A DNA stretch of 36,252 nt. It comes from Bacteroidales bacterium (GTDB taxonomy: Bacteria; Bacteroidota; Bacteroidia; Bacteroidales; F082). The position numbers and the translations under genes are program-made. The stretch lies in assembly GCA_024400195.1 (NCBI GenBank), contig JAKSNC010000019.1, positions 1 through 36,252 on the forward strand. Direction: 5' to 3'. Every line of letters starts with the position of its first letter. Within the stretch, counting starts at the first letter, position 1. The notes under the pieces are model-generated. The model did no database searches. It was not told the DNA's origin and saw only the letters and a list, made by a program, of their open reading frames with translations. Positions 15,478 through 35,944 of this stretch are shown here, piece by piece.

Positions 15478-15508
15478 CAAAATTACACTATTTTTACAAC
15501 AGAAACAA
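15478..15508 (-). promoter_or_regulatory. Bacteroides-type promoter of the DUF1016 gene
   Basis: TAATTTTG (15485-15478, minus) and TTG (15508-15506) are 20 bp apart. The leader to the ATG at 15370 would be about 100 nt. I see no other element in 15371-15557. Confidence 0.5.
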
Positions 15509-15557
15509 TTTACTAAAAAAGAAAATACGATATTTCTGACAATCATCCTTGCCATTT

Positions 15558-15863: not shown

Positions 15864-15872
15864 AGTATTTTC

Positions 15873-18209: not shown

Positions 18210-18324
18210 CATAATAATGTTTTTCAAAAAACGAACCCGAATTTCGTGCCGCACGCAGTATGTCGCGGCAATTGAACAGGATATTGTCAAGGTTGATGAC
18301 GTTTTCGGTAGATTTCTTTGCCAT
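18199..18324 (-). pseudogene. Truncated head of a different hsdM, fused to the start of hsdR
   Basis: From the ATG at 18324 the minus strand reads MAKKSTENVINLDNILFN, then CRDILRAARNSGSFFEK, which is the N-terminal signature of a second type I HsdM family unrelated to the HsdM at 12458-14008. After FEK it breaks off into HYYDEH and a TGA at 18201-18199, overlapping the hsdR start (18209). The 41-codon frame may now act as an upstream leader ORF, translated before hsdR. Confidence 0.7.
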
Positions 18325-18398: not shown

Positions 18399-18450
18399 AA
18401 ACAATAATCCAAATTGTTAATAATTTTTTACAAATAAAGTTTCTTTGAAC

Positions 18451-18611
18451 AAAAACCGGCCAACTTGGTGAATAAAAATCGGCCAACTTGGTGAATAAAA
18501 ATCAGCCAACTTGGTGAATGAAAACCAGCCAACTTGGTGAATAAAAATCAGCCAACTTGGTGAACGAAAATCGGCCAACTTGGTGAATAAAAACCGGCCA
18601 ACTTGGTGAAT
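18451..18611 (+). repeat. Array A: seven tandem copies of a 23-bp repeat upstream of a DUF4143 ATPase
   Basis: There are seven contiguous units of exactly 23 bp, starting at 18451, 18474, 18497, 18520, 18543, 18566 and 18589. In the sense of the ATPase gene each unit is RAAAAYCRGCCAA followed by CTTGGTGAAY. Only columns 1, 6, 8 and 23 vary, always by a transition. The unit contains the small dyad CCAA-C-TTGG. There are no spacers, so this is not a CRISPR. The period is not a multiple of three, so no repeated peptide is encoded. The array fills the gap between the hsdR promoter region (minus strand) and the ATPase promoter (plus strand). It ends 14 bp before that promoter's -33 element. Confidence 0.97.
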
Positions 18612-18625
18612 AATTTTTATAAAAG

Positions 18626-18657
18626 TTTGATTTATAATAAAATAATTTGTATTTTTG
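18626..18657 (+). promoter_or_regulatory. Promoter of DUF4143 ATPase A
   Basis: TTTG (18626-18629), 20 bp, TATTTTTG (18650-18657): a strong match to the Bacteroides consensus. The ATG follows 24 bp later. Spacing to the array and to the ATG is almost the same as at the paralogous locus (32664-32695). Confidence 0.8.
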
Positions 18658-18681
18658 CAGTTCAAAAAAGTGCATTAAAAA

Positions 18682-19962
18682 ATGCAAGAAAGTAATTATA
18701 AAAATCGCATTGCAGACAAGATTCTTGCCGAACAACTTGAAGCCTCCGGTGTTGTTCTGATACAAGGTCCCAAATGGTGTGGGAAAACGACGACGGCGGT
18801 TCAGCGGGCAAAGAGTGTCGTTTACATGGATGATCCTCGCTCGGTAAAATCAAACTTGTATTTTGCGGATACAAACCCCAATGTAATTCTTGACGGAGAC
18901 ACTCCTCGGCTGATTGACGAATGGCAATTGGCTCCAAAACTATGGGACGCCGCAAGATTTGAAGTGAGTCATCGGGGGCTGCCCGGCCAGTTGATATTCA
19001 CCGGTTCTGCCGTGCCTCCGAACATGTCGGAGATTTACCATTCGGGGGCAGGAAGGTTCGCTCGTGTGGTAATGCGCCCGATGACACTTTGGGAGTCGGG
19101 TGATTCTAACGGCGGAGTAAGTCTCAAATCGCTCTTCAATGGTGAGGATTTGGCGGTATTGTCGCCCGACCATCCATTAGATGAAATAGCCTACCTGACA
19201 TGTCGTGGCGGATGGCCCGGCACATTGCTTTTGAGCAGAAAAGCGGCTTTGCGGCAGGCTGCCAACTACGTTGACATTATTATAAACTACGATGTTTCAA
19301 GAGCTGACGGCTCAAACAAAGATGCGGAATTTGCCAGCAGGCTGTTGAGAGCATACGCGAGACATCAAGGCGGACAAGTGCCGATAAGCACGTTTTACAC
19401 TGACCTTGAAACGAATAAGCTCGCAAGTATGAGCGAAGACACAATAGCTTCGTACATTAACGCTTTCAAGAAGATTTTCACCATTGAGGACATGCCGGCT
19501 TGGAATCCCAACCTCCGCTCAAAAACGGCGATACGCACATCCGACACGCGGTATTTCGTCGATCCTTCGATTGCGGCAGCCGCTCTTGGTCTCGGCCCGA
19601 ACGACCTGCTGAACGACCTCGAAACAATGGGACTGCTGTTTGAGACATTGGCCGTCAGAGACTTACGTGTCTATGCCGAAGCGATGGATGGCAAGGTCTA
19701 TCATTACCGCGACAAAAACGGGCTTGAATGCGATGCCGTGATTCACCTCCGCAACGGTAAATACGGTCTTGTCGAGATAAAACTCGGCGGTGACACTCAC
19801 ATTGAAGAAGGTGCGGCGAACCTCAAGAAGTTACGTGGCAAAATAGATACCGAAAAGATGCAGGAGCCGTCGTTCATGGCCGTCGTGACAGCCGTTGGCA
19901 AATACGCCTTCCGCCGCGCCGACGGTGTGTATGTCGTGCCGATCGGAAGCCTGAAGGACTGA
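18682..19962 (+). CDS. DUF4143 family P-loop ATPase A (repeat-associated)
   Basis: This 426-residue protein has an N-terminal AAA-type ATPase domain: Walker A GPKWCGKTTTA (residues 29-39), Walker B-like PRLIDEW (75-81), and the sensor-like IFTGSAVPP. A winged-helix-like middle region follows. The C-terminal DUF4143 domain (residues about 285-426) includes RTSDTRYFVDPS, HYRDKNGLECDAVI and YGLVEIKLGG. The D..EIK pattern in that last part resembles a PD-(D/E)XK core; whether it cuts DNA is unknown. The family is very common in bacteria and archaea without an agreed role. A close paralog is encoded at 31363-32640. This gene has its own promoter and stands directly after repeat array A. It is GC-richer than the adjoining leader and is intact. 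Confidence 0.92.
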   Translation: MQESNYKNRIADKILAEQLEASGVVLIQGPKWCGKTTTAVQRAKSVVYMDDPRSVKSNLYFADTNPNVILDGDTPRLIDEWQLAPKLWDAARFEVSHRGLPGQLIFTGSAVPPNMSEIYHSGAGRFARVVMRPMTLWESGDSNGGVSLKSLFNGEDLAVLSPDHPLDEIAYLTCRGGWPGTLLLSRKAALRQAANYVDIIINYDVSRADGSNKDAEFASRLLRAYARHQGGQVPISTFYTDLETNKLASMSEDTIASYINAFKKIFTIEDMPAWNPNLRSKTAIRTSDTRYFVDPSIAAAALGLGPNDLLNDLETMGLLFETLAVRDLRVYAEAMDGKVYHYRDKNGLECDAVIHLRNGKYGLVEIKLGGDTHIEEGAANLKKLRGKIDTEKMQEPSFMAVVTAVGKYAFRRADGVYVVPIGSLKD

Positions 19963-19996
19963 CATTGGCATCAACGTCATGAGAAAGTGTAAAAAA

Positions 19997-20024
19997 GCAG
20001 AGACGCGTCTAAACGCGTCTCTGC
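19997..20024 (-). terminator. Rho-independent terminator of ppdK
   Basis: A perfect 12-bp stem (GCAGAGACGCGT with its complement) encloses a 4-nt loop. On the minus strand it is followed by six T (19996-19991), so it suits ppdK. The hairpin may also slow transcripts from the convergent ATPase A gene, which ends at 19962. Confidence 0.85.
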
Positions 20025-20061
20025 TCATATTATCGTCTGACGTTAATCGTCATTTCTTATT

Positions 20062-22842
20062 TTACTTCTCGGCCTTGATAGCAGCCTGTGCCGCTGCGAG
20101 TCGTGCGACCGGCACGCGGAACGGCGAGCAACTGACATAGTTGAGGCCTGTCTTGTAGAAGAACTCCACAGAAGCCGGGTCACCGCCATGTTCACCACAA
20201 ACGCCGCATTTCAGAGATGTTCTTGCACTTCTGCCACGCTCAACACCAAGTTTCACCAACTGACCGACACCTTCCTGATCCAATGTGTTGAACGGGTCGG
20301 CAGGGATAATCTTCTGGTCGATATAGCTGTGAACAATGGCATTAACATCATCACGCGAGAAGCCGAATGTCATCTGGGTGAGGTCGTTGGTTCCGAAGCT
20401 GAAGAACTGTGCCACTTCGGCAATCTTGTCGGCGACCAATGTGGCGCGAGGTATCTCAATCATCGTTCCGTACATATATTCAATCTGGAACTTATATTTC
20501 TTCTCCACTTCGGCCTTGACGCGCTCGGCAATAGCTTTCTGGTGCTCAAGTTCCTTCACGTTGATTGTAAGAGGAACCATTATCTCGAGGTGAGGATGTT
20601 GGCCTTCCTTCATCAGTTGTGCCGTTGCCTCAAACAGGGCGCGGAACTGTGTCTCGGTAATCTCCGGATAGACGATGCCGAGGCGCACTCCACGGAGACC
20701 CATCATCGGGTTGACTTCGTGAAGCAGTTCGATTCTCTTCTGAAGTTCACGGAGCGACATTTTACGTTCAGCGGCGAGTTCCTTCTGTTTGTCGAGTGTA
20801 TGAGGGACGAACTCGTGAAGCGGCGGGTCCATAAGGCGGAATGTGACAGGTTTGCCATCGAGCACCTTCATCGTGGCCTTTGCGCTTTCGCGGATATAAG
20901 GTTCGAGTTCGTTAAGTGCGGTCTGGCGTTCCTTGATGGCCTTTTCGACAGCCTCTTTGCGTTTCTTGTCGTTCTTTATAGTCATTGCGAGAGCCTCGCT
21001 CGTAGTCGCGATAATCATATTGCGGAGTTTGGCGAGAGGTTTCTCGCTGTTCTTGCCGTAGAACATGTGCTCGATACGGAACAGACCTATACCTTCGGCA
21101 CCGAAGCTGACGGCTTTAAGAGCATCGTCCGGGTTGTCGGCGTTGGTACGGACACCCATCTTGCGGTATTTGTCAACGAGTTTCATAAACTCTTGGAAGC
21201 GTTTGTTCTCGGTGGCGTCAATCATCTTGATTTCGCCGTCATAGACGTAACCCTTCGTTCCGTTAAGGCTGATGATGTCACCTTCTTTGTATATCTTCTC
21301 GCCGATGGTGACGGTAGCATCTTTCTCGTTGATATGGACGGCTTCGCAACCGACTATGCAGCACTTACCCCAGCCGCGGGCGACGAGGGCGGCGTGTGAT
21401 GTCATTCCGCCTTTTGCGGTGAGGATGCCGTTAGCAGCGCGCATACCTTCGACGTCTTCGGGATTGGTTTCTTCTCTGACAAGGACGCAGTTTGTCTTGG
21501 CAGCGCGATATTCATTAGCCTTTGCGCTTGATAGGGCGATTCTTCCCACTGCACCGCCGGGACCTGCCGGAAGACCGTGAGCGAGAATCTTGTGTTTCTT
21601 CTCGTCCGAAGCATCAAGAATCGGGTGAAGAAGTTCGTCAATCTGATTGACATTCAGTCTCATAACAGCCGTTTTCTCATCAATGCGTCCTTCGTGAAGC
21701 ATATCGAGGGCCATATTGACGGCGGCGACACCTGTACGTTTACCGACACGGCACTGAAGCATATAGAGTTTCTTGTCCTGAATTGTGAACTCTATATCGA
21801 GCATGTCTTTGTAGAAGTCTTCAAGAATGCGGCGGACCTCACAGAGTTCTTTGTAAGTATCGGGCATAAGCTCCTGCATTGAAGGCATGTTCTTGTTTTT
21901 CTCGTTCTTGGTGTCGTCGTTGAGCGGGTTAGGCGTGCGGATACCGGCGACGACGTCTTCACCTTGGGCGTTGATAAGCCATTCGCCATAGAACTTGTTA
22001 TCGCCTGTTGCGGGGTCACGTGTGAAAGCGACGCCCGTTGCGGAATTTTCGCCCATATTTCCGAACACCATAGTCTGAACGTTGACGGCTGTACCCCAGT
22101 CTTCGGGAATACCTTCTATCTTACGGTAAGAGACTGCTTTCTTTCCGTTCCAGCTCTTAAACACGGCCTTGATACCGCCTTCGAGTTGTTTTTCGGCGTC
22201 ATCGGGGAACGACTTGCCGAGTTCCTTTTTAATGACTTTCTTAAACTCTTCGGCGAGATTTTTAAGTTCCTCGGCCTTGATGTCGGTATCTGACTTATAA
22301 CCCTGTTTCTTTTTGAAATTATCGAGCATATCGTCAAGAATCTTGCGGATTCCGACACCTTTGACCGGTTCCATATCTTCAGCCTTCTCCATGACGACGT
22401 CGGCGTACATCATGATGAGGCGGCGATATGAGTCATATACGAAGCGTGGGTTGTTTGTCTTCTTGATGAGGCCCGGAATAGTTTTGGAGCAGAGGCCGAT
22501 ATTGAGCACTGTATCCATCATGCCCGGCATTGACTGGCGCGCGCCGGAGCGGCATGACACGAGAAGAGGATTCTCGGCATCGCCGTATTTCATTCCCATG
22601 ATGGCTTCCATTTTCTTTATTCCGGCGTGAACATCATCCATCAAACCTGCAGGAAGCTGGCATTTATTCGCATAATAGGCGGTGCAGCATTCCGTGGTTA
22701 TGGTGAGACCTGCAGGAACAGGGAGACCGAGGTTGCACATCTCAGCAAGGTTGGCACCTTTTCCGCCCAAAAGATTCTTCATCGTCGAGTTTCCTTCAGC
22801 CTTGCGGTCGCCGAAAGAATAGACGTATTTGATTTTTCCCAT
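20062..22842 (-). CDS. ppdK: Pyruvate, phosphate dikinase
   Basis: This 926-residue enzyme interconverts pyruvate + ATP + Pi and phosphoenolpyruvate + AMP + PPi in the cytoplasm. The N-terminal nucleotide-binding domain has KNLLGGKGANLAEM and SCRSGARQSMPGMMDT..NIG. The central swivelling domain has the phospho-histidine motif GGMTSHAALVARGWGK (about residue 484). The C-terminal TIM-barrel PEP/pyruvate domain has GLFRIEHMF, GLRGVRLGI, SFGTNDLTQMTFGF..D and CGVCGEHGGDP with its catalytic Cys. Length and motifs are complete. In Bacteroidota it commonly serves as a PPi-linked step between glycolysis and gluconeogenesis. It is a single-gene unit with its own promoter and terminator. Confidence 0.97.
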   Translation of the reverse strand: MGKIKYVYSFGDRKAEGNSTMKNLLGGKGANLAEMCNLGLPVPAGLTITTECCTAYYANKCQLPAGLMDDVHAGIKKMEAIMGMKYGDAENPLLVSCRSGARQSMPGMMDTVLNIGLCSKTIPGLIKKTNNPRFVYDSYRRLIMMYADVVMEKAEDMEPVKGVGIRKILDDMLDNFKKKQGYKSDTDIKAEELKNLAEEFKKVIKKELGKSFPDDAEKQLEGGIKAVFKSWNGKKAVSYRKIEGIPEDWGTAVNVQTMVFGNMGENSATGVAFTRDPATGDNKFYGEWLINAQGEDVVAGIRTPNPLNDDTKNEKNKNMPSMQELMPDTYKELCEVRRILEDFYKDMLDIEFTIQDKKLYMLQCRVGKRTGVAAVNMALDMLHEGRIDEKTAVMRLNVNQIDELLHPILDASDEKKHKILAHGLPAGPGGAVGRIALSSAKANEYRAAKTNCVLVREETNPEDVEGMRAANGILTAKGGMTSHAALVARGWGKCCIVGCEAVHINEKDATVTIGEKIYKEGDIISLNGTKGYVYDGEIKMIDATENKRFQEFMKLVDKYRKMGVRTNADNPDDALKAVSFGAEGIGLFRIEHMFYGKNSEKPLAKLRNMIIATTSEALAMTIKNDKKRKEAVEKAIKERQTALNELEPYIRESAKATMKVLDGKPVTFRLMDPPLHEFVPHTLDKQKELAAERKMSLRELQKRIELLHEVNPMMGLRGVRLGIVYPEITETQFRALFEATAQLMKEGQHPHLEIMVPLTINVKELEHQKAIAERVKAEVEKKYKFQIEYMYGTMIEIPRATLVADKIAEVAQFFSFGTNDLTQMTFGFSRDDVNAIVHSYIDQKIIPADPFNTLDQEGVGQLVKLGVERGRSARTSLKCGVCGEHGGDPASVEFFYKTGLNYVSCSPFRVPVARLAAAQAAIKAEK

Positions 22843-22869
22843 TTTTAATAAGATTTATGATTTAAGGCG

Positions 22870-22877
22870 CAAAGATA
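22870..22877 (-). promoter_or_regulatory. -7 element for ppdK
   Basis: TATCTTTG on the minus strand, 27 bp from the ATG at 22842. No TTTG lies at the usual -33 distance. Confidence 0.45.
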
Positions 22878-22965
22878 CGATTTTATCCTTGATTTTCGAC
22901 ATTTATTTTTCAAAAAGAATGGGAATCAAGATGGCCTCTACAATATCCACGAATTGTTTTCTCAA

Positions 22966-22985
22966 AGTCGCGATGAATCGCGACT
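22966..22985. promoter_or_regulatory. Inverted repeat, possible operator upstream of the efflux operon
   Basis: AGTCGCGAT and ATCGCGACT form a perfect 9-bp dyad around GA. The word AATCGCG recurs at 23031-23037 and a partial copy (ATATCGC) at 23002-23008. The site is about 130 bp upstream of the presumed transcription start. Its short central gap and lack of a T tract fit a protein-binding site better than a terminator. Confidence 0.4.
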
Positions 22986-23113
22986 CTACCAGTTTTCGTT
23001 AATATCGCAAGCCATTCTACATTCAGATAGAATCGCGCCTCATTTTCATTGAAACAACTTTTATTTTGAGTGAAATAGAGCTTTGCGTCAGTCGAAAGCA
23101 AGTTTTTTTTTCA

Positions 23114-23121
23114 TATTTTTG
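23114..23121 (+). promoter_or_regulatory. -7 element for the efflux operon
   Basis: TATTTTTG matches TAnnTTTG. The closest TTTG (23082-23085) is 28 bp upstream, further than usual. The ATG at 23186 leaves a leader of about 60 nt. Confidence 0.45.
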
Positions 23122-23185
23122 CAGCCTCAAATTACGCCAATAAAAAGGCTCTTGTGGAAAATAAAAACCTTTAAATAATTAAATA

Positions 23186-24511
23186 ATGTTCAAATCAAAG
23201 TTATTAATTTTCTGTGTTTTGAGTATTTTCGGACTCTGGTTCGGAGAGGATGCCCGCTCACAGGAAAAGCTGACGCTCACTTTGGACGAGGCCATCGACA
23301 TAGCCCTGACGGAAAGTCCGACGGTGAAGATAGCCGACCTGACGGTTCAGAAGACGGGCTATGCAAAAAAAGGCACTTACGCCTCACTTTATCCAAACAT
23401 CAGTTTGAACGGCAATTATCAGCGCACCATCAAGAAGCAGGTCATGGCGATGGAGATGAACGGTCAGACTATGGAAATCGAAGTGGGTATGAGCAACAAC
23501 ATTTCAGCCGGTGTCACCGCGGCGATGCCACTTGTCAACGCCCAGCTTTGGAAGAGTCTCAAGCTGTCAGCAATTGATGTAGAGATTGCCGTCGAGAAGG
23601 CCCGCTCGTCAAAAATAGCGATGGTTTCGGAAGTGAAGCAGGCGTTTTTCGGCGTCCTTTTTGCGAAAGAGGCCTTAAATCTGTACAAAGAGACATACGA
23701 CAACCAGGTCCGCAATTTTGAGAATGTCGAAAAGAAGTACAATGTCGGCAAGGTTTCGGAGTTTGAATATCTGCGTGCGCAGGTCAACATGAAGAACGCC
23801 GAGCCAAACGTCTATAGCGGAGAGACGGCTGTTGAACTTGCGATATGGCAGCTCAAGGCCGTCATGGGCATCGACTTTGAAACGGAGTTGGATGTCGTCG
23901 GCGAGATAAAGGACTACAAAGACCCGCTTATCAATCCTTCTATCGAGCAACTCGAATACGATGTGGAACACAACACCAATCTGGTTCAGTTGGGACTGCA
24001 AAACGAGCAGATTGACGCTGCGATAAAGCAATACAAATACGGCTACCTCCCCACCCTGTCGGCCTCGTTCAACTACAATTACGTAACACTCAGCAACGAT
24101 TTCGACTTCCACTGGAATCCGTACTGCGTTGCCGGACTGACACTTTCGATACCGATATTCGATGGTTTGTCGAAACACTACAACATCAGCCAGTACAAGA
24201 AGACCCAGGAGATTTTGAAACTCACCATCGAAGACACAAAGAGACAGATTCAAATCGGGGCGAAGAACTACACTGACGTGATGCAGACATGCGTCAAGAG
24301 ATACGCAGCAGCCGAATCGACACTCTCGATGGCTCAGAAGAGCTACAACATCGCGGAGAAGATGTTCGAAGTCGGAAAAGCCACCATCATAGAACTTAAC
24401 GACGCGGAACTCGCACTCATGCAGGCAAAGCTGAACATCTCACAGTCAATCTACGACTACATGGTCGCGTTCTCGAAACTCAACGAACTCATTGGAAACG
24501 AATACAAATAA
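23186..24511 (+). CDS. TolC-family outer membrane efflux protein
   Basis: This 441-residue protein has a signal peptide (MFKSKLLIFCVLSIFGLW..ARSQ). Two tandem OEP repeats of the TolC fold follow. The first opens with LTLDEAIDIALTESPTVKIADLTV and the second with NTNLVQLGLQNEQIDAAIKQYKYGYLPTLSASFNYN, each with a long coiled helical hairpin; the end reads LNISQSIYDYMVAFSKLNELIG. It forms the outer-membrane channel of a tripartite pump together with the next two gene products. It is the first gene of a four-gene operon, with 34 bp to the next start. Confidence 0.93.
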   Translation: MFKSKLLIFCVLSIFGLWFGEDARSQEKLTLTLDEAIDIALTESPTVKIADLTVQKTGYAKKGTYASLYPNISLNGNYQRTIKKQVMAMEMNGQTMEIEVGMSNNISAGVTAAMPLVNAQLWKSLKLSAIDVEIAVEKARSSKIAMVSEVKQAFFGVLFAKEALNLYKETYDNQVRNFENVEKKYNVGKVSEFEYLRAQVNMKNAEPNVYSGETAVELAIWQLKAVMGIDFETELDVVGEIKDYKDPLINPSIEQLEYDVEHNTNLVQLGLQNEQIDAAIKQYKYGYLPTLSASFNYNYVTLSNDFDFHWNPYCVAGLTLSIPIFDGLSKHYNISQYKKTQEILKLTIEDTKRQIQIGAKNYTDVMQTCVKRYAAAESTLSMAQKSYNIAEKMFEVGKATIIELNDAELALMQAKLNISQSIYDYMVAFSKLNELIGNEYK

Positions 24512-24545
24512 AAACACTTGGAAAATAAAAAAAATAAGATATAAA

Positions 24546-25568
24546 ATGAAAACATTAGGTAATTTATTAGTTGCTTCTATCGCGTTGATAGCTGTTTCCT
24601 GCGGACAGAAGAATGACAAACAGGCGGCGGTTCTTGACGAGCTCCCAAAAGTCACCGTTGCAAAATGCAATGCGGAATATGTTCCACAAATCAATGTCTA
24701 TCCGACGACGATTCTGGCAGATGTCGTTAACAACATCGCCCCGCAGTCGGCAGGACGTATCAAACAGATTTTCGTCGAAGTCGGCGACCACGTGAAAGCC
24801 GGACAGAGACTCGCCACGATGGATGCCGTCAACCTTGAGAAAGCAAAACTTCAAGTGCTCAATGATTCAATCGAGTACGGACGCATCAAGGAACTTCACG
24901 AGATAGGCGCGGTCTCACAATCGGATTATGACGCGATGACTCTCGCATACGACATTGCGAAGAAGACATACGCAAACCTTCTTGAAAACACGTACCTCGA
25001 CAGTCCTTCATCGGGAGTCGTAACGGCCAGAAACTACGATACCGGCGACATGTACGCCATGGCACAGCCGCTTTTCGTCGTTCAAAGCATCACACCGGTA
25101 AAGATGATGATTAACGTATCGGAGACTGATTTCATCAATGTAAAAAAAGGTATGGAAGTTGACATCGTGACCGAATCATACAAAGATGAAGTTTTCAAGG
25201 GCAAGATCAACATCATTTACCCCGTCATCGACCAGCGTTCGCACACGTTCCAGGTGGAGATAGTGTGTGAAAACCGCGACGAGCGTCTCCGTCCGGGAAT
25301 GTTCGCCCGTGTGAGCCTCAACTTCGGCGAGAAATACAACGTCGTCATCCCCGACAGGGCCGTCCAAAAGCAAATCGGTGCCGGCGACCAATATGTCTAT
25401 GTCCTCAACGACGACAACACAGTGACATACAAAATCGTGACACTCGGTGCAAGAATGAACGACAGGTTCGAAGTCCTCAGCGGCCTTGATGACGGCTGTA
25501 TAGTGATAACGACCGGACAGAACAAGCTCAGAAACGGCATCAAAGTCGAAGTAGTTGAAAAGAAGTAG
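24546..25568 (+). CDS. Periplasmic adaptor (membrane fusion protein) of an RND efflux pump, lipoprotein
   Basis: This 340-residue lipoprotein has a signal ending in the lipobox LIAVSC-G (Cys at residue 19). An AcrA/HlyD-type core follows: a biotinyl-lipoyl half (APQSAGRIKQIFVEVGDHVKAGQRLATMD), a shortened alpha-hairpin, the second lipoyl half (YLDSPSSGVVTARNYDTGDMYAMAQPLFVVQSI), a beta-barrel, and a membrane-proximal end (ERLRPGMFARVSL, VIPDRAVQKQIGAGDQYVYVL). I chose the ATG at 24546 because it gives a proper lipoprotein signal. A longer frame from 24492 would overlap the tolC-like gene. The stop is TAG, useful evidence that amber is a real stop in this genome. Confidence 0.93.
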   Translation: MKTLGNLLVASIALIAVSCGQKNDKQAAVLDELPKVTVAKCNAEYVPQINVYPTTILADVVNNIAPQSAGRIKQIFVEVGDHVKAGQRLATMDAVNLEKAKLQVLNDSIEYGRIKELHEIGAVSQSDYDAMTLAYDIAKKTYANLLENTYLDSPSSGVVTARNYDTGDMYAMAQPLFVVQSITPVKMMINVSETDFINVKKGMEVDIVTESYKDEVFKGKINIIYPVIDQRSHTFQVEIVCENRDERLRPGMFARVSLNFGEKYNVVIPDRAVQKQIGAGDQYVYVLNDDNTVTYKIVTLGARMNDRFEVLSGLDDGCIVITTGQNKLRNGIKVEVVEKK

Positions 25569-25598
25569 TCAGCAAACAACCTTTTAAATTGATTATAA

Positions 25599-28500
25599 AT
25601 GAGTTTATATAGATCATCTGTCAACAATCCCGTAACCGTGACGTTGGTTTTCGTGACCATCGCCATCATGGGTGTGTTCGGGTTGATGAAGCTGCCAATC
25701 AACCTGCTTCCGAGTATGGAAGCGAATACCATTATGGTGTTCACGAGTTATTCGGGCGCGAATGCCGCTGATATTGAGACTAACGTTTCCAAAGTCTTGG
25801 AAAACACGCTCAACTCTGTCAGCAACCTCAAGCACATAACGTCCAATTCCAAAGAAAACATATCCATCATCACGTTGGAGTTTGAATACGGTATCGACAT
25901 CGACGAAGCGACGAATGACGTCCGAGACAAACTCGAGATGGTAAAGTCGTATCTACCTGAAGGAACTGGCAATCCGTTCATCTTCAAGTTCAGTATGGAA
26001 GACATGCCAATCTTGATGCTTTCGGCGACGGCTGAAGAGAGCACCAACGCTTTAGACAAGATTCTCGACGATAAGTTGACGACGCCGTTAGCACGTGTCA
26101 ACGGTGTCGGAACGGTGTCTGTATCGGGTGCTCCCAAACGTGAGATTCAAATCTTCGTGGAGCCTAACAAACTCGAGGCTTATGGTCTCACCGTCGAAGC
26201 AATATCGGGTGCCATTGCCGCTGAAAACAGAAACCTTCCGGCCGGCAACATTGATGTTGGTTCCGACACTTATTCTGTCCGTATTCAGAAGGAATTCGAA
26301 TCGGCCGGCGAGATGTCCGACATCGTAGTCGGTATGTTCAACGGCAAGGCTGTATATCTGAAAGATGTTGCGACAATCAACGACGGACAGCAGGAACGTC
26401 TGCAGTCGGCGTTCACCAACGGTCGTCAGGGTGCAATGATTATCATTCAGAAACAGACCGATGCCAACGCCGTCGAGGTTATAAAAGGAGTAAAGAAAGA
26501 ACTTGCGAAGTTGGAGAAAGGACTTCCTTCTGATGTTAAGATTAACACTATCATGGACACGTCCGACAACATCATCAACACAATCAACTCACTTGAAGAG
26601 ACCATTTTCATCACCTTTATGCTTGTGGCTTTGGTCGTGTTTGTGTTCCTCGGAAGATGGAGGGCGACATTCATCATCGTCTTATCCATTCCTATTGCCC
26701 TTGTCGGTTCGCTTGTTTATCTGTGGGCAACAGGCAACACGTTGAATATCATATCAATGAGTGCTTTATCAATAGCTATCGGTATGGTTGTTGACGATGC
26801 TATCGTCGTTTTGGAGAACATCACGTCCCACATCGACCGCGGCGCGAAACCTATGGAGGCAGCCGTTCACGCGACACAAGAAGTATCAATCTCCGTTATC
26901 GCGTCAACGCTCACCATGCTCGCCGTGTTCCTGCCTCTGACGATGGTCTCAGGTCTCGCCGGCGTCCTCTTCCAGCAACTCGGATGGATCGTCAGCATCA
27001 TCATGATAATATCGACGAGCGCGGCACTGACCCTTGTACCGATGATGTGCGGAAGAATGATGAAGCTGCACAAGAGCGACAGCAAGTTCCACAAGTTTCT
27101 CTTCACACCTATCGATAAAGGCCTTAACGCTCTTTCCAATGGTTACGGCCGTCTCATCAACTGGGCTGTAACACACAGAAAATCAACCGTTTTCATCGCA
27201 ATCATCATCTTCTTTGTCACCCTTGTTCTGACACTGCCGCGACTCAAGACCGAGTTCGTGCCGAATATGGACCAAGGTCGTCTTTCCATCACAATCAACC
27301 TGCCAGTCGGTACCGGAGAGGCCGTCACAAAAGAATTAGCTGAAGAATTATACAAAAAATACACCGATTCCATTCCGGAAATCGTGGTTTTCAACTACCG
27401 TTACGGTGTTGCTGATGAGGAAAACGCCTTTGCATCAATGCAAAACAACGGAACGCATATTCTTTCGATGAACATCAACCTCGGTTCTAAGATGACACGT
27501 GTGAGAAGCACTCAGGAGATAGCCGAATGGGTGCGCCGCGACCTCAAAAACAACACAATAATAAGCAAATACAGTGTAACAGAAGGACAAGGCGGAATGG
27601 GCGGCGCATCGTCCGTGAAACTTGAGATATATGGTTACGACTTCAGCGAGGCCGACCGCGTGGCTGCCGAACTACAACGCCAGATGATAGAGTCGCCGAT
27701 GTTCTCGCAGGTGCTCCTCAGCCGCGACGAATATACGCCTGAATATCACGTTGATTTCGACAGAGAGAAACTGATGCTCAACGGAATAGACCTCACCACC
27801 GCCGCGACATTCGTCAGAAACCGTATCAACGGTTCCATCATGACTTATTTCCGTGAGGACGGAGACGAATATAACGTGAGAGTTCGTTATGCACCTGAAT
27901 ACAGAAAGAGCAAGGAAGACATTGAAAACATCGTACTTTACGGCTCTCAGGGACAAGTTGTGAGAGTGAAAGAAGTCGCCAAAGTTGTTGAAGCTCTGAC
28001 ACCTCCTACCATTGAGAGAAAAGACCGTGAGAGAATGGTCTCCGTGACCGGCATCGTGGCAAAGGGATACGCACTTTCCGACGGCGTCGCCGAGACGGAG
28101 AAATATATCGCGCAGACCGACGTGCCGTCAGAGTTTATGGTCAAAATTGCTGGTGACTACGAGAACCAGAAAGACGCTTTCGCCGACTTATTCATGCTTC
28201 TCGCCTTGATTATCATACTCGTTTATGTCGTTATGGCCTCGCAGTTCGAGTCGCTTGTGGACCCGTTTGTCATCATGTTCTCGGTGCCGTTTGCCTTTAC
28301 CGGCGTTCTCATCGGATTGGTAACGAGCAATATGGCTCTCGGCATCATGGCTATGATCGGCGTTCTTATTCTGATGGGTATCGTTGTTAAAAACGGTATC
28401 GTCCTTATCGACTACACCATTCTTTGCCGTGCAAGAGGAATGAAAGTCAACGAAGCCGTCGTCACCGCATCGAAACAGCGTCTTCGTCCTATCCTTATGA

Positions 28501-28733
28501 CGACGTTGACGACCGTTCTCGGTATGGTGCCGTTAGCCATCGGTACCGGCGAAGGTGCTGAGATGTGGACAAGCCTCGGTGTCACTGTGGCATGGGGACT
28601 CAGCGTTTCAACACTCATAACACTCGTCCTTATCCCGACGTTATACGCCATCGTTTTAAGCAGAAGAGAACGCAAAGAACAAAGGAAGGCAACAAAACTG
28701 ACAGGCAACGACGCAATCATCGCAAATCTTTAA
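25599..28733 (+). CDS. RND (HAE1-type) multidrug efflux transporter
   Basis: This 1,044-residue inner-membrane pump has 12 helices in two halves, each with a large periplasmic loop. Visible marks are the N-terminal helix (NPVTVTLVFVTIAIMGVFGLMKLPINLLPSME), helix 4 with the proton-relay pair (SIAIGMVVDDAIVVLENI, the two adjacent Asp), FLPLTMVSGLAGVLFQQLGW, and the second-half motifs (PFAFTGVLIGL, GIVVKNGIVLIDY, RLRPILMTTLTTVLGMVPLAIG). It exports drugs or other amphiphiles by proton antiport, with the adaptor and TolC-like proteins encoded just upstream. Two Asp in helix 4 indicate the HAE1 drug-efflux group rather than the metal-exporting group; the substrate is unknown. Confidence 0.95.
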   Translation: MSLYRSSVNNPVTVTLVFVTIAIMGVFGLMKLPINLLPSMEANTIMVFTSYSGANAADIETNVSKVLENTLNSVSNLKHITSNSKENISIITLEFEYGIDIDEATNDVRDKLEMVKSYLPEGTGNPFIFKFSMEDMPILMLSATAEESTNALDKILDDKLTTPLARVNGVGTVSVSGAPKREIQIFVEPNKLEAYGLTVEAISGAIAAENRNLPAGNIDVGSDTYSVRIQKEFESAGEMSDIVVGMFNGKAVYLKDVATINDGQQERLQSAFTNGRQGAMIIIQKQTDANAVEVIKGVKKELAKLEKGLPSDVKINTIMDTSDNIINTINSLEETIFITFMLVALVVFVFLGRWRATFIIVLSIPIALVGSLVYLWATGNTLNIISMSALSIAIGMVVDDAIVVLENITSHIDRGAKPMEAAVHATQEVSISVIASTLTMLAVFLPLTMVSGLAGVLFQQLGWIVSIIMIISTSAALTLVPMMCGRMMKLHKSDSKFHKFLFTPIDKGLNALSNGYGRLINWAVTHRKSTVFIAIIIFFVTLVLTLPRLKTEFVPNMDQGRLSITINLPVGTGEAVTKELAEELYKKYTDSIPEIVVFNYRYGVADEENAFASMQNNGTHILSMNINLGSKMTRVRSTQEIAEWVRRDLKNNTIISKYSVTEGQGGMGGASSVKLEIYGYDFSEADRVAAELQRQMIESPMFSQVLLSRDEYTPEYHVDFDREKLMLNGIDLTTAATFVRNRINGSIMTYFREDGDEYNVRVRYAPEYRKSKEDIENIVLYGSQGQVVRVKEVAKVVEALTPPTIERKDRERMVSVTGIVAKGYALSDGVAETEKYIAQTDVPSEFMVKIAGDYENQKDAFADLFMLLALIIILVYVVMASQFESLVDPFVIMFSVPFAFTGVLIGLVTSNMALGIMAMIGVLILMGIVVKNGIVLIDYTILCRARGMKVNEAVVTASKQRLRPILMTTLTTVLGMVPLAIGTGEGAEMWTSLGVTVAWGLSVSTLITLVLIPTLYAIVLSRRERKEQRKATKLTGNDAIIANL

Positions 28734-28744
28734 TACTCAAGACA

Positions 28745-29038
28745 ATGAAAGGAATATTCGTAGCATACAACCAAGCCTACTTCATGGAGGTGGCAAACAT
28801 TCTTGAAAGACACAACAGCCGTGGATTCACACGCTGGAACGAGATAAACGGACGCGGAAGCGAGACAGGAGAGCCTCATTACGGCGATCACACATGGCCA
28901 GTGATGAACGACGCCATTCTGTCCTTTGTTGCCGACGAGGAGTCGGACGGCATTATGGAGGCCTTGCACAAACTCGACTCTATCACTCCGGAACTCGGTC
29001 TGCGGGCTTTCTGCTGGCAGATTGAAAAGAGTATATGA
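28745..29038 (+). CDS. PG0541-family transporter-associated protein (small PII-like fold)
   Basis: This 97-residue cytoplasmic protein (MKGIFVAYNQAYFMEVANIL.., GFTRWNEINGRGS, GEPHYGDHTWPVMNDAILSFV, ..LGLRAFCWQIEKSI) starts 11 bp after the pump gene. It belongs to the small family found directly downstream of TolC/MFP/RND operons in Bacteroidota, as at PG0541 of Porphyromonas gingivalis. The beta-alpha-beta pattern suggests a PII/CutA-like ferredoxin fold, so a sensory role at the pump is plausible but is inference. The His residues in 'EPHYGDHTW' could bind metal. I set the start at 28745; an upstream extension only reads the end of the pump gene in another frame. Confidence 0.82.
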   Translation: MKGIFVAYNQAYFMEVANILERHNSRGFTRWNEINGRGSETGEPHYGDHTWPVMNDAILSFVADEESDGIMEALHKLDSITPELGLRAFCWQIEKSI

Positions 29039-29076
29039 GATTAGATGTCGGTGCCGAATTTAGGCATCGACAAAGA

Positions 29077-29121
29077 AATTGCTTCGGCGGGTTCTGAATT
29101 TCAGAACCCGCCGAAGCAATT
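29077..29121. terminator. Long hairpin between convergent operons
   Basis: A perfect 21-bp stem (arms start ATTGCTTCGG and end with its complement) has a 3-nt ATT loop. It lies between the stops of the efflux operon (29038) and the histidine kinase (29131), so it can end transcription from both sides. The minus-strand exit is T-rich (TTTCTTTG); the plus-strand exit is not. Confidence 0.8.
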
Positions 29122-29130
29122 ATAACACCA

Positions 29131-30006
29131 TCATTTGAAAATCAACTGAAAAACCGTCTTTTCCTGAGAACTTTCGACAAGGTTGATACTTCCGTTGTGC
29201 AGATTCATAAACTGCCGCGAGAGGCTTAGACCGATGCCGGTACCGTTACTTTTGGTAGTATAAAAAGGTACAAACATCTGTTCCCGACTTTCACGACTGA
29301 CGACGTTTCCATTGTTGCTGACGGTGATACACACCTGCTCATCGGCATTGATACTCGCCTCAATATCAATCTTATCGGCTTCCGCCTGAAGCGCATTTTT
29401 AATCAGATTGACCATAATCTGCGACAACTGACTTTCGTCGGCATAAAGTATAATATCATCGGAAAATGCTGTATATGAACATTTCGCATTATACATAGCG
29501 CATTGTTCCGAAGTCAGGTTGATGATTTTCTCCATCAATTCGGAAAGCATGACGGCTTTTTTGACCGGACGCGCCACGCCTGCCAAAGTGCGGTACGACT
29601 CCACGAATCTGATCAAATCCTTCGATGACGACGAAATCGTTTTCAGCCCAACTTTGATATCTAACTGCTCCTCGTCGGGATGCTCGACGGAACGGCTCAA
29701 GGCCTCGCTCAAAGAGGCAATCGGGCTGACCGTATTCATGATTTCGTGCGTCAGGACGCGGATGAGCTTTATCCACGACTCTTGTTCGTCGCGTTGACGG
29801 TTTCGCTCTAATATCCAACGCATTCGGTTCAATGTGGTGTTAAATTTCCCATTTTCCTGAAAACGGAAATTCATCTCGTCGTCTTCAAAAGCATCAAGCA
29901 TATAGGCAACCTTGTTTCTATCCTTGCGCCGCACGATGATGGATGTAACTATAGCCGTCACCACAACAAATGCAAAAACAATCAATATCACAGGCCAAAG
30001 TTGCAT
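29131..30006 (-). CDS. Sensor histidine kinase, NtrY-like, with minimal sensor region
   Basis: This 291-residue protein has one N-terminal membrane helix (WPVILIVFAFVVVTAIVTSIIV), a short linker, then the kinase core: H box LTHEIMNTVSPI (His87), N box QIMVNLIKNALQAEA, and G boxes VSNNGNVV and GTGIGLSLSRQF. It should phosphorylate the regulator encoded at 30006-31331. I start it at the ATG at 30006, whose A is the last base of the regulator's TGA (TGATG), giving tight coupling. A TTG one codon upstream is possible. Only one membrane helix and no periplasmic loop or PAS domain are present, so the signal is probably sensed in or near the membrane or through a partner. Confidence 0.9.
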   Translation of the reverse strand: MQLWPVILIVFAFVVVTAIVTSIIVRRKDRNKVAYMLDAFEDDEMNFRFQENGKFNTTLNRMRWILERNRQRDEQESWIKLIRVLTHEIMNTVSPIASLSEALSRSVEHPDEEQLDIKVGLKTISSSSKDLIRFVESYRTLAGVARPVKKAVMLSELMEKIINLTSEQCAMYNAKCSYTAFSDDIILYADESQLSQIMVNLIKNALQAEADKIDIEASINADEQVCITVSNNGNVVSRESREQMFVPFYTTKSNGTGIGLSLSRQFMNLHNGSINLVESSQEKTVFQLIFK

Positions 30007-31331
30007 CAAATGCTGTATTTTTTTAGTTTGTTGTATAATGTCGGGCGACTGATATTCAACGATTTTGCAACCAACGTAAGATTACCGTCGTATTTTTCCA
30101 TCGCACTGCGGATGGCTTTTTCTTCCGTTTCATCCAAAGTCGGTATTTCCATCGGCTTTGAAACAGATGTGATTTTCAAATCATTTGGTGTAAGAGAAGT
30201 ATTTTCCGCGAGAATAACGGCTTTTTCGATACAGTTCTGCAACTCACGAATATTGCCGCTCCAACTGTGATTTTCAAGCACTTCCCTACCCGACTCGCTC
30301 ACGCCTTCGATATTACGGCGATATTTTTTGTTGAACTTTCTGATAAAAATTTCCGCCAAAGGCAAAATATCGTTTTTTCTATCCCTCAACGACGGAAGAT
30401 GCAGTTGAACAGTATTGATTCTATAGTACAAATCTTCGCGGAAATGACCTTCTGCGACCATCTTTTCAAGGTTCTTATTTGTGGCGCAAATCAAACGAAT
30501 ATCAACTGGAACAAGTTTATTATCACCGACTTTCGTAATATTTCTATTTTGAATGGCACGCAAAAGTTTAGCCTGAAGATGCAGCGGAATATTACCGATT
30601 TCGTCGAGGAAAAGCGTGCCGCCGTCGGCCTGCTCGAACTTGCCGATATGATCGGTATGTGCATCGGTGAACGCGCCTTTGACGTGGCCGAAGAGTTCGC
30701 TTTCAAACAAAGTCTCGGTGATGGCCCCCGCATCGACGCAGACAATCTGGCGGTTGCATCTCTTGCTCAAACGATGTATTTCCTGTGCCAAGACATCTTT
30801 TCCGGTACCGTTTTCGCCCGTAATCAAAACCGTGGCGTCGGTCGGCGCAATCTTGCCGACATTATGGCGGATAGTCTGCATAGTCGGAGTGCCGCCCCAA
30901 AACATTTCGACCTTATCATCTGAAAACGTGTCCTTTATAGAAGATTTGCAAGCCTTACAGCAGGCGTTTTTCAAGACGGAGATAAGTTTTTCGTTATCCC
31001 ATGGCTTCACGATGAAGTCGAAGGCACCTCGGCGCATTCCCTCGACGGCAAGAGCAATGTCGGCATAAGCCGTAAAAAGCACGACTTCTGTTTTCGGCAT
31101 CATCTTCTTTATCTCAGTCGTCCAGAAAAGACCTTCGTTGCCGGAGTTCGTTTCGGCGAAGAAATTCATGTCGAGAAGCACGACATCAGGTTTGAAGGAC
31201 TCCATTTCGGAGACCAAAGTGGCGGGCGAAGTCATCACCAGTACCTCTTCAAAATGCGGAGGCAGAAGGATTTTCAGCGCGGCGCAGATACCTTTATTAT
31301 CATCGACGACCAATATTTTACCTTTATTCAT
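30006..31331 (-). CDS. NtrC-family sigma-54-dependent response regulator
   Basis: This 441-residue protein has a receiver domain with Asp54 (VVLLDMNF) and the Lys of FIVKPW, followed by a sigma-54 AAA+ domain: Walker A TGENGTGK (171-178), the sigma-54 contact loop GAFTDA (219-224), Walker B GGTLFLDEIGN, and the REDLYYRINTVQLHLPSLR and WSGNIRELQN motifs. It ends with a Fis-type HTH (NLTLVAKSLNISRPTLYNKLKKY). The contact loop is GAFTDA rather than the textbook GAFTGA. I chose the ATG at 31331 because the promoter at 31350-31357 would start transcription just upstream of it; a start at 31352 would lie inside the promoter. It is co-transcribed with the kinase gene. Likely targets are nearby efflux genes, possibly the ABC operon with dyads at 36150-36190. 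Confidence 0.93.
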   Translation of the reverse strand: MNKGKILVVDDNKGICAALKILLPPHFEEVLVMTSPATLVSEMESFKPDVVLLDMNFFAETNSGNEGLFWTTEIKKMMPKTEVVLFTAYADIALAVEGMRRGAFDFIVKPWDNEKLISVLKNACCKACKSSIKDTFSDDKVEMFWGGTPTMQTIRHNVGKIAPTDATVLITGENGTGKDVLAQEIHRLSKRCNRQIVCVDAGAITETLFESELFGHVKGAFTDAHTDHIGKFEQADGGTLFLDEIGNIPLHLQAKLLRAIQNRNITKVGDNKLVPVDIRLICATNKNLEKMVAEGHFREDLYYRINTVQLHLPSLRDRKNDILPLAEIFIRKFNKKYRRNIEGVSESGREVLENHSWSGNIRELQNCIEKAVILAENTSLTPNDLKITSVSKPMEIPTLDETEEKAIRSAMEKYDGNLTLVAKSLNISRPTLYNKLKKYSI

Positions 31332-31349
31332 AGCACGTTTTATTCGTTG

Positions 31350-31378
31350 CAAATGTATGAAATTAATCCTTCAAACAA
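31350..31378 (-). promoter_or_regulatory. Promoter of the response regulator / kinase pair
   Basis: TACATTTG (31357-31350, minus) with TTG (31378-31376) 18 bp upstream. It overlaps the last codons of ATPase B. The ATG at 31331 would have a very short leader. Confidence 0.5.
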
Positions 31379-32640
31379 CCAATAGGAACGACCAAGACAT
31401 CATCAGTTCTGCGGTAGGCATAATCGCCGACACCGGTAAGAATCATCATAAAACTCGGTTTTTTCATACGGTCTGTATCAATTTTTTCAGACAGCCGAAG
31501 CAGATTTTTCGCTCCATCGTTGATGTTTGCATCTCCGCCAAGTTTGATTTCCACCAATCCGTATGTGCCATTTCTCTTGTGAATGACAGCATCGCATTCC
31601 AATCCAGACTTGTCGCGGTAATGATAGACAGTTCCGTCAATGGCATCGGCATAAACGCGCAAATCTCTGATACACAATATTTCAAACATAAGTCCCATTG
31701 TTTCTAAATCATCTAACAACTCTTCTGGACCAAGGCCTAATGACGCTGTCGCGATAGAAGGATCAGTAAAATAACGGGTATCGCTTGTGCGTATAGCCGT
31801 TTTAGAGCGCAGGTTCGGATTCCACGCCGGGACGTCCTCAATCACAAAAATCTTCTTTAAGGCATTGATATATGAATAGATGGTATTCTCGTTAAGCGTA
31901 TCTTCATCATTGACCTTTATGTCGGCCAAAATAGTACCGACAGTAGCTTGCGCACCTTGAAGCCGTGCATACGATCTCATCAGACGCTCGGCACGCTGCG
32001 AATCGCGCGTAACATCATCGACACGCGAAATATCTGAACGAGTGACCGCCTTATAATATTCCTTTGCCTGCATAAGAGCCGCTTTATCAGTCTTTTTCTG
32101 AGTAGCTTGCGGCCATCCGCCACGACAAATCAGGAAAGCGAGTTTATTGATGTCTATCGAAGATGTCCCGTCAACAACAGACGGATCTTTAAAGAGTTCG
32201 GAAAGGCTCACTTCGCCGCTCGAATCGCCTGATTCCCAAAGGCTCATCGTCCGCATTGTAAGCCATGAAAAACGTCCGGTTCCTGTATGAAAAATGTCGT
32301 CGTTTGACGGCGGAACTGCCGAACCTGTCAAAATAAATTGCCCGTCTTCGCCACGCTTATCAACTTCAAAGCGAACCGCATCCCATAATTTCGGCGCAAT
32401 CTGCCATTCGTCAATAAGCCTTGGCGCATCGCCACTCAACAGTTTACCGATGTTTGTTGTAACGAGCGTGATGTTTTGGTCTTTTTTCTCAGGATCTGCC
32501 ATAAACAACACGCTTTTTGCATGCTGAAGAGCAGTCGTCGTTTTGCCGCAATACTTGGGACCTTCTATCAAAACCGCTCCCATCGCTTCTAATTTTTCAC
32601 TTAACAAAACATCTGCAATTCGTCGTCTATATTCAACCAT
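31363..32640 (-). CDS. DUF4143 family P-loop ATPase B (repeat-associated paralog)
   Basis: This 425-residue paralog of the protein encoded at 18682-19962 aligns along its whole length. It has Walker A GPKYCGKTTTA (27-37), Walker B-like PRLIDEW, LTGSAVPPS, CRGGWPQ, the near-identical block PAWNPNLRSKTAIRTSDTRY, and C-terminal HYRDKSGLECDAVI with YGLVEIKLGG (PD-(D/E)XK-like). The N-terminal half and the region before the conserved block are more diverged than the C-terminal half. It carries its own promoter and its own 23-bp repeat array. It lies between an ABC transporter permease gene and a two-component regulator, with which it has no obvious functional link, so it looks like an inserted module. 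Confidence 0.92.
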   Translation of the reverse strand: MVEYRRRIADVLLSEKLEAMGAVLIEGPKYCGKTTTALQHAKSVLFMADPEKKDQNITLVTTNIGKLLSGDAPRLIDEWQIAPKLWDAVRFEVDKRGEDGQFILTGSAVPPSNDDIFHTGTGRFSWLTMRTMSLWESGDSSGEVSLSELFKDPSVVDGTSSIDINKLAFLICRGGWPQATQKKTDKAALMQAKEYYKAVTRSDISRVDDVTRDSQRAERLMRSYARLQGAQATVGTILADIKVNDEDTLNENTIYSYINALKKIFVIEDVPAWNPNLRSKTAIRTSDTRYFTDPSIATASLGLGPEELLDDLETMGLMFEILCIRDLRVYADAIDGTVYHYRDKSGLECDAVIHKRNGTYGLVEIKLGGDANINDGAKNLLRLSEKIDTDRMKKPSFMMILTGVGDYAYRRTDDVLVVPIGCLKD

Positions 32641-32663
32641 TTTTATTGATTTTTTTTCGACTG

Positions 32664-32695
32664 CAAAATTACATTATTTTTTTCTAATTATCAAA
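32664..32695 (-). promoter_or_regulatory. Promoter of DUF4143 ATPase B
   Basis: TTTG (32695-32692), 20 bp, TAATTTTG (32671-32664) on the minus strand; the ATG follows 23 bp later. The layout matches the ATPase A promoter almost base for base in spacing, including the GCAGT just after the -7 box. Confidence 0.8.
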
Positions 32696-32710
32696 CATTT
32701 AAATAAATTT

Positions 32711-32802
32711 GTTGTGGCACTTGGCCGATTTTCGTTGTGGCACTTGGCCGATTTTCGTTGTGGCACTTGGCCGATTTTTGTTGTGGCACTTGGCCGATTT
32801 CC
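32711..32802 (-). repeat. Array B: four tandem copies of a 23-bp repeat upstream of the second DUF4143 ATPase
   Basis: There are four contiguous 23-bp units, with plus-strand starts at 32711, 32734, 32757 and 32780. In the sense of ATPase B each unit reads RRAAATCGGCCAA followed by GTGCCACAAC. The first 13 positions are those of array A; the rest differs at six positions. The copies vary only at positions 1 and 2, by transitions. The array lies between the stop of the permease gene (32807) and the ATPase promoter, 15 bp from the -33 element. No terminator hairpin separates it from the permease gene, so it may also be transcribed by read-through. Confidence 0.95.
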
Positions 32803-35941: not shown

Positions 35942-35944
35942 GAT

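Follow-up and report, generated by a model that had tools for sequence, protein, structure and literature searches.

Private 23-bp repeat arrays upstream of DUF4143 ATPase genes as candidate operators of the adjacent gene

The window analysed here, a stretch of 36,252 nucleotides of contig JAKSNC010000019.1 from a Bacteroidales bacterium (assembly GCA_024400195.1), carries two paralogous ATPase genes, each preceded by a tandem repeat array. The locus raises the question of what such an array does and whether it is read by the product of the adjacent gene. The sequence analysis described below points to self-control, each protein probably recognising the array in front of its own gene.

Two array–ATPase modules in the window

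Array A (18446–18613, plus strand; period 23, 7.3 copies and score 266 in Tandem Repeats Finder) comprises seven 23-bp units, each consisting of the core GCCAACTTGGTGAA and a spacer of about 9 bp. Its seven exact 14-bp cores start at 18459, 18482 and onwards to 18597, and span 18459–18610. Array B (32711–32800, minus strand; period 23, 3.9 copies, score 173) comprises four units, each with the core GCCAAGTGCCACAA and a spacer; the four exact cores start at 32712, 32735, 32758 and 32781. Across the family, the unit is made up of a core of about 14 bp (GCCAAnTnnCnGAA-like) and a spacer of about 9 bp. The initial annotation had divided the unit into a constant and a variable half. The boundary between the two was slightly misplaced and is replaced here by the division into core and spacer: the RAAAAYCR of the former constant half belongs to the spacer and differs in part from unit to unit of the same array, and its GCCAA is the first third of the core, which reaches into the former variable half.

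The two proteins, ATPase A (18682–19962, plus strand, 426 aa) and ATPase B (31363–32640, minus strand, 425 aa), are 60% identical, and both open reading frames match AAA_14 and DUF4143 (PD-(D/E)XK-like) above the Pfam cut-offs. Tandem Repeats Finder and Pfam thus agree with the original description of two arrays of 23-bp period, each before a DUF4143 ATPase paralogue. The spacing that had been reported as common to both modules (array, 14 or 15 bp, TTTG, 20 bp, TAnnTTTG, 24 or 23 bp, ATG) is also present in the sequence. Promoter A (18626–18657, plus strand) reads as TTTG (18626–18629), 20 bp and TATTTTTG (18650–18657), and promoter B (32664–32695), read on the minus strand, as TTTG (32692–32695), 20 bp and TAATTTTG (32664–32671). 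From its TTTG, 20-bp gap and TAnnTTTG box, we take promoter A to be of the Bacteroidetes −33/−7 type.

Both proteins match the PADLOC system PDC-S01 (2.7e-60 for ATPase A and 1.4e-58 for ATPase B), with the model PDLC04790 spanning residues 5–424 of ATPase A, a full-length match. By sequence, they belong to this candidate phage-defence family; its models are also matched by all nine scanned paralogues of other subfamilies. In two papers, PDC-S01 is described as an unvalidated PADLOC candidate of ATPase plus PD-(D/E)XK architecture; it is reported to rank fourth in frequency among prokaryotic defence types and to be the single locus found most often in a rumen survey, its experimental validation still pending (PMC12988326, PMC13356809). 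The main text of PMC12988326 does not contain the word 'promoter' and uses 'repeat' four times in unrelated senses; no paper naming the array was encountered among the titles and passages on DUF4143 and PDC-S01 that were consulted. The DUF4143 family is common but uncharacterised, and is listed as a candidate antiviral defence.

Conservation of the array and its rarity at other genes

Homologues were drawn from the same genus, other Bacteroidales and several other phyla. Among 222 homologues whose upstream sequence extended over at least 100 bp, a period-23 array was found at 212 (161 of 168 after dereplication), and ten loci lacked one by the cut-off. These counts support the proposal of a conserved module made up of array and ATPase. 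The number of sites per gene ranges from two to nine. A phylum-wide search at E ≤ 1e-90 gave matches in four of 218 genomes, including that of the window itself. Homologues occur in 51 of 72,556 plasmid records, every one below 60% identity, and are scarce among phage records (4 of 50,697); the viral loci number three.

The genome of the window contains 20 DUF4143 matches, six of which belong to the subfamily of the window, and each of these six genes is preceded by a 23-bp array built of a unit of its own. When the 300 bp upstream of each of 354 open reading frames of at least 100 aa (about 480 kb) were scanned, a period-23 score of at least 13 was reached at seven, all above 20: the six subfamily genes and hsdR. 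The latter was the only one of the other 348 genes to score at this cut-off, and its upstream window overlaps array A, which hsdR and ATPase A share divergently. One further gene of the 354 scored 10. Arrays are thus rare upstream of other genes in this genome and not equally frequent at unrelated ones. As the array is present at most of the homologues examined and rare at other genes of this genome, neither of the patterns by which a fortuitous link would be recognised was found.

Exact cores are confined to their own arrays in the 479,876 bases searched. One of the six cores, that of locus L005, has ten near-matches elsewhere, which exceeds shuffled cores (share of shuffles 0.025), and additional weaker sites may therefore exist beyond the arrays. 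Promoter repeats extend to the wider family: a repeated or inverted word 13 bp or more in length lies within 130 bp of the ATG at 15 of 18 DUF4143 genes in this genome versus 11 of 342 others, and the two other DUF4143 subfamilies examined have promoter repeats of 22 bp or about 33 bp, the units of which, as judged by eye, often lie in the −33/−7 spacer or just past the −7 box. One branch of the family therefore carries an exactly periodic, private array before nearly every copy examined, and the sampled branches carry other promoter repeats.

Covariation between core bases and protein residues

Between arrays, cores grow more alike as the proteins do, their identity rising from 0.43 to 0.99 and that of the spacers from 0.44 to 0.88. 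Covariation was calculated for 208 proteins (effective number 100). The strongest signals link residue 345 with core columns 2 (z 17.7) and 1 (z 14.0), and residue 253 with columns 12 (z 14.8) and 11 (z 8.5); the best spacer pair reaches z 4.6. When each array was swapped for that of the nearest relative, these values fell to 6.6 and 4.7 for residue 345 and to 3.0 and 2.8 for residue 253, and the highest z of any pair was 7.4. Residue 236 with column 8 (z 6.7) lies below this control maximum. Other pairs at z 5–7 involve column 3 and residues dispersed over the protein; this level is unspecific because of that scatter and because the swapped control itself reaches 7.4. The expected covariation of the variable part with protein residues is accordingly borne out for residues 345 and 253. 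At the presumed specificity positions ATPase A has S236, D253 and K345, and ATPase B (in ATPase A numbering) has G236, N253 and K345; their cores differ at column 8 (T in A, G in B) and column 12 (G in A, C in B).

Two forms of prediction bear on the same residues. With whole clusters left out, residue 253 predicts column 12 at 0.72 (next residue 0.57, majority base 0.45) and is the only residue singled out; the others are weakly supported or not supported, residue 345 being barely the best for column 1 and outside the best six for column 2. With 75 loci from named genomes as the training set and 70 genus loci of less than 75% identity to them as the test set, residue 236 gives column 8 correctly at 46 of 70 loci versus 18 for the majority base, residue 345 gives column 1 at 48 (versus 34) and column 2 at 53 (versus 41), residue 253 gives column 12 at 48 (versus 41) and residue 234 gives column 6 at 42 (versus 39), while residue 247 does worse for column 11 than the majority base (29 versus 34). 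A Fisher test on closest pairs was excluded as support: it is unspecific because more diverged pairs differ everywhere, and unrelated residues reached p values of 2e-6 to 1e-4. Taken together, covariation with bases of the core holds for residues 345 and 253 and, less surely, for residue 236.

The Walker A/B and E-D-ExK motifs are intact in all 208 aligned proteins of the 23-bp subfamily, in which K35, D79, E80, E321, D351, E365 and K367 are invariant. Searches for solved relatives gave none at E ≤ 1 for protein alignment A1 and seven matches for alignment A2 (E 0.36–1.5), all unconvincing; a winged-helix assignment for the middle region is therefore unsupported.

Array position and candidate roles

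At 129 of 166 loci the array is separated from the ATG by a promoter box, and the distance from array to promoter is quantised at about 11 bp. Measured from the last core to the TAnnTTTG box at 89 dereplicated loci, the best period is about 11.1 (R 0.81); the 32 loci outside the main cluster agree with it in phase (R 0.77, approximate p 6e-9, the period having been chosen on the same data). Because of the array position, this phasing and the confinement of exact cores in the searched part to their own arrays, self-regulation is favoured among the roles proposed in the initial annotation. The array is probably a private operator of the adjacent protein, most likely serving cooperative negative autoregulation. 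Each core would be read by the DUF4143 protein, with residue 345 in the nuclease-like domain reading columns 1–2, and the middle region reading columns 10–12 through residue 253 and probably column 8 through residue 236. We infer direct binding, with protein copies probably aligning cooperatively on units exactly 23 bp apart, and array occupancy most likely repressing the gene's own promoter. Repression would hold a potentially dangerous nuclease low and avert cross-talk with paralogues, and the ATPase state or a phage or plasmid cue may alter this control.

The helical phasing fits activation as well as repression, and the array position at 75 of the 129 boxed window-type loci, where the last core lies 36–41 bp upstream of the −7 box, could suit an activator. 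Positive autoregulation, in which array-bound protein would recruit RNA polymerase from one helix face and the switch would lock on once triggered, can thus draw on the phasing and on a main cluster of loci upstream of the −33 element. We nevertheless consider it unlikely, since 26 of the 129 boxed loci have units in the −33/−7 spacer or past the −7 box, as do many of the 22-bp and ~33-bp loci (by eye); at those 26, the last core ends 4–19 bp before the −7 box and a bound protein should therefore block the polymerase. It is quite unlikely that the array is more than an operator and gives a single-gene module for defence or addiction its self-address, marking self and titrating a parked nuclease that would be released on array loss or when replication, transcription or invading DNA alter occupancy. 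If this were so, gut bacteria would hold a large family of orthogonal array-addressed nucleases with a readable protein–DNA code. As a tether or antidote, the array would titrate and hold the nuclease, which would be freed or directed once the locus is lost or DNA invades, giving addiction or array-directed defence. This reading would account for the multiple private units per gene, the invariant catalytic residues, the occurrence of array and gene together at otherwise unrelated loci and the listing of the family as a defence candidate; against it stand the ten homologues without a clear array and the rarity of homologues in phage records, and we consider it improbable. The present data lend no support to the parasitic or addictive element or the array-directed defence suggested in the initial annotation, nor do they refute either.

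The array might also mark one end of a unit of about 1.45 kb that moves by its own machinery. Among 85 pairs at 76% identity or above, which are not independent, 50 share only array, promoter and gene. In 37 of these 50, homology ends on the left no more than 5 bp from the array edge, and in 35 it ends on the right no more than 5 bp from the stop codon. Such sharp limits are not special, because unrelated YhcG genes taken as a control family are likewise gene-limited in homology, several pairs at 74–84% identity sharing the gene only; a special mobility of array and gene is weakened accordingly. Inspection of junctions by eye revealed neither terminal repeats nor target duplications, and in empty-site searches for the B and G047 loci the flanks stop at the module edge, with no clean two-sided empty site. 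We regard a mobile-element end as very improbable. Regulation at the RNA level, or fortuitous repetition, has the least to recommend it: some arrays do stop 16–18 bp from the ATG (Treponema, a Sphaerochaetaceae MAG and Fibrobacter), but the promoter box between array and ATG at most loci, the residue–base covariation and the rarity of arrays at other genes render it extremely improbable.

Such arrays provide each protein with a predicted DNA target and a ready reporter, together with predictions of its specificity residues, and the family offers a large natural supply of candidate orthogonal protein–DNA pairs. Defence screens that express these genes from foreign promoters could mislead if autoregulation is tight.

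The modules resemble several known systems in part. The Rep proteins of iteron-controlled plasmids are autoregulated and have lineage-private direct repeats of about 20–22 bp beside the gene of the binder. The arrays of the window are likewise direct repeats with private units adjoining the gene of a predicted binder, but here single genes encode an ATPase with a nuclease-like domain and no Rep domain match. An iteron plasmid replicon is not indicated: the proteins match only AAA_14 and DUF4143, and genes for elongation-factor-G-like and PEP-utilising enzyme proteins lie on the same contig. In toxin–antitoxin and restriction–modification controller operons, a potentially harmful enzyme is autoregulated under a private operator. 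The likeness lies in a potentially harmful enzyme with a predicted private operator; the shared unit of the window module, however, includes no partner gene, and the enzyme itself appears to read the DNA. The initiators Orc1/Cdc6 and DnaA are of AAA type and bind repeated boxes close to the genes that encode them, and the window module similarly pairs an AAA-type protein with repeated boxes near its gene, the difference being that its proteins are AAA_14 by Pfam and have a PD-(D/E)XK-like C-terminus.

Distribution of the 23-bp array

The open reading frames directly downstream of array A (18446–18613, 7.3 copies) and array B (32711–32800, 3.9 copies), both 23-bp tandem arrays, match AAA_14 and DUF4143, and the array–promoter–ATG geometry that the initial annotation had described before both ATPases is present in the sequence as given. 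Array A is flanked by ATPase A and a divergent hsdR-like gene (type I restriction locus); ATPase B has a sigma-54 response regulator on one side and an FtsX-type permease on the other. The region beside array A (10536–18290) holds type I restriction HsdS, HsdM and HsdR genes with a YhcG/DUF1016 nuclease gene among them. Short 7–8 bp intergenic repeats (TTTGACTT/GACTTTC-like) lie at 35944–36055 and 6379–6456, and two DUF4143 modules of this genome (L223 and L224) are likewise flanked by short intergenic repeats, of other kinds.

The ATPase gene was present in 35 of 60 genomes in a search of the genus and in 35 of 257 in an order-wide search; a phylum-wide search gave four more loci, from other families. 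The best 80 loci of the matches in a named-genome scan were taken; among the taxa in their record titles are Bacteroidales, Treponema, Fibrobacter, Clostridia, Dialister and Gardnerella, and two are MAGs labelled Proteobacteria. From the 227 loci assembled, five with less than 100 bp upstream were left out and up to 450 bp upstream of the other 222 was scanned. The expectation that close homologues would carry 23-bp arrays upstream was borne out: a period-23 array exceeded the score cut-off at 212 loci (161/168 after dereplication by shared 5-mers), and the ten without an array by this cut-off include a poly-A artefact (L095). Among the order-wide matches outside the genus of the window, the array was found at 43 of the 48 loci examined and in 25 of 29 genera examined (30 had a match).

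The genome of the window, which is contig 11 of the 54 in this 1.84-Mb assembly, has 20 DUF4143 matches of several subfamilies. Six genes, ATPase A and five close relatives (44–62% identity to A) that include ATPase B, represent its subfamily here; all six are preceded by a 23-bp array, and the unit differs from array to array. As a control, up to 300 bp upstream was scored for 354 predicted ORFs (at least 100 residues, at least 150 bp upstream) from ~480 kb of this genome. A period-23 score of at least 13 was obtained for seven, namely the six subfamily genes and hsdR, to which array A is common; one further gene scored 10. For the YhcG control, sporadic nuclease genes of the genus, array-like scores were seen at 2/30 loci, neither with period 23. 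In another genome of the genus (G013), a search with ATPase A gave 11 matches at E ≤ 1e-40, of which some may be partial.

Of 85 locus pairs with at least 76% identity, 50 have only the array, promoter and gene in common, for example L005 of this genome and L076 (91%). The conclusion that array and gene move together stands. Special mobility of the pair was set aside because a control gene family also showed gene-limited homology. At the place that module B occupies in the window, two other genomes (L292:3565–3680 in G077, and the corresponding site, L293, in G059) have a tandem array of period 25 bp, in which GCGCAATTACACGTAAG occurs in three exact copies and one diverged copy, with no DUF4143 gene beside it among the ORFs listed; its 17-bp word (at most one mismatch) was found nowhere else in these two genomes.

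Unit anatomy and residue–base covariation

When the arrays are folded into 23 columns, columns 1–14 form a core (overall GCCAAATtaCcgAA) and columns 15–23 a spacer. Copy pairs within one array agree at 83–97% in core columns, at 66–74% in spacer columns 15–16 and 20–23 and at 84–88% in the A-rich columns 17–19. Arrays have 2–9 copies, mostly three or four. Between arrays the most variable core positions are columns 6, 8, 9, 11 and 12, and with rising protein identity core identity increases from 0.43 to 0.99 and spacer identity from 0.44 to 0.88.

Background-corrected mutual information was calculated for 208 protein–array pairs and compared with a swapped control, in which each protein received the array belonging to its closest relative under 85% identity. 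The top pairs were residue 345/column 2 (z of 17.7; 6.6 when swapped), 253/column 12 (14.8; 3.0), 345/column 1 (14.0; 4.7) and 253/column 11 (8.5; 2.8), followed by 253/column 10 (7.1; 1.8) and 236/column 8 (6.7; 0.0). Since the maximum for any swapped pair was 7.4, residues 345 and 253 are clear of the control, and residue 236 solely by its own drop. Column 3 pairs (up to 7.3) and residue 67/column 8 (6.4) reach a similar level, a signal that may be phylogenetic; the highest z involving a spacer column was 4.6. Column 2 is C in all weighted cases with lysine 345 (53.3/53.3), while column 12 is G with aspartate 253 (27.9/31.0) and C with asparagine 253 (12.6/19.0). The combinations in the window, S236 and D253 with T8 and G12 for ATPase A and G236 and N253 with G8 and C12 for ATPase B, agree with the family trend. 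Stricter tests gave a mixed outcome. Leave-cluster-out prediction clearly singled out residue 253 for column 12, with residue 345 barely the best for column 1, and a closest-pair test showed no specificity. Trained on the named-genome loci, residue 236 predicted column 8 correctly in 46 of 70 genus loci (majority base, 18/70), with smaller gains for other residues and a loss for 247.

Promoter phasing and proposed self-regulation

A TAnnTTTG box separates the last core from the ATG at 129 of 166 loci (6% expected from shuffling). Core-to-box distances cluster at ~5, 16–17, 27–28, 38–40 and 49–50 bp with a few outliers; the best period is ~11.1 bp (89 dereplicated loci, distances up to 70 bp), and the 32 loci outside the main cluster have the same phase. 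The array complex therefore seems to turn the same helix face toward the promoter. At 26 of the 129 loci the last core ends 4–19 bp ahead of the box, within the −33/−7 spacer, a position at which bound protein would be expected to keep polymerase out; this arrangement favours repression, short of proof.

Over 479,876 bases searched in this genome, none of the six 14-bp cores had a perfect match outside its own array. Near-matches beyond the arrays (one or two mismatches) numbered five for A, none for B, ten for L005, three for L007, two for L009 and six for L006, and exceeded most shuffled cores for L005 only (share of 0.025, uncorrected over six tests). Another DUF4143 gene, L003, is preceded by a lone site one mismatch from core A (L213:12573); the sequence of this site, GCCAACTGGGTGAA, is the core of the array of locus L074 in another genome (G024), and it is possibly the relic of a lost array.

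We suggest that the arrays would serve as private operators read by the protein encoded alongside, most likely so that this ATP-dependent, nuclease-like protein cooperatively represses its own expression. The Walker A and B residues and the E-D-ExK motif are invariant in all 208 aligned proteins, so the protein is probably more than a repressor; to judge from these alignments, selection probably maintains both the ATPase and the nuclease-like site.

Other DUF4143 subfamilies

Thirty loci each, some incomplete, were collected for relatives of two other paralogues. Units at L011-type loci are mostly 22 bp and often lie inside the spacer or past the −7 box; at L018-type loci they are spaced ~33 bp, with palindromic cores in many. 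Several of the fetched loci had no clear repeat. In the genome of the window, a word of 13 bp or more, repeated or inverted, occurs within 130 bp of the ATG in 15 of 18 DUF4143 genes (the 20 minus one fragment and one without a usable start) versus 11 of 342 other genes, and in 9/12 when the six 23-bp genes are removed. From these counts and the sampled subfamilies, self-addressed promoter repeats look like a wider family trait. All nine paralogues scanned match models of PDC-S01, an unvalidated PADLOC phage defence candidate family; the relevant passages of PMC12988326 and PMC13356809 treat this family as a candidate for defence purely on its genomic context.
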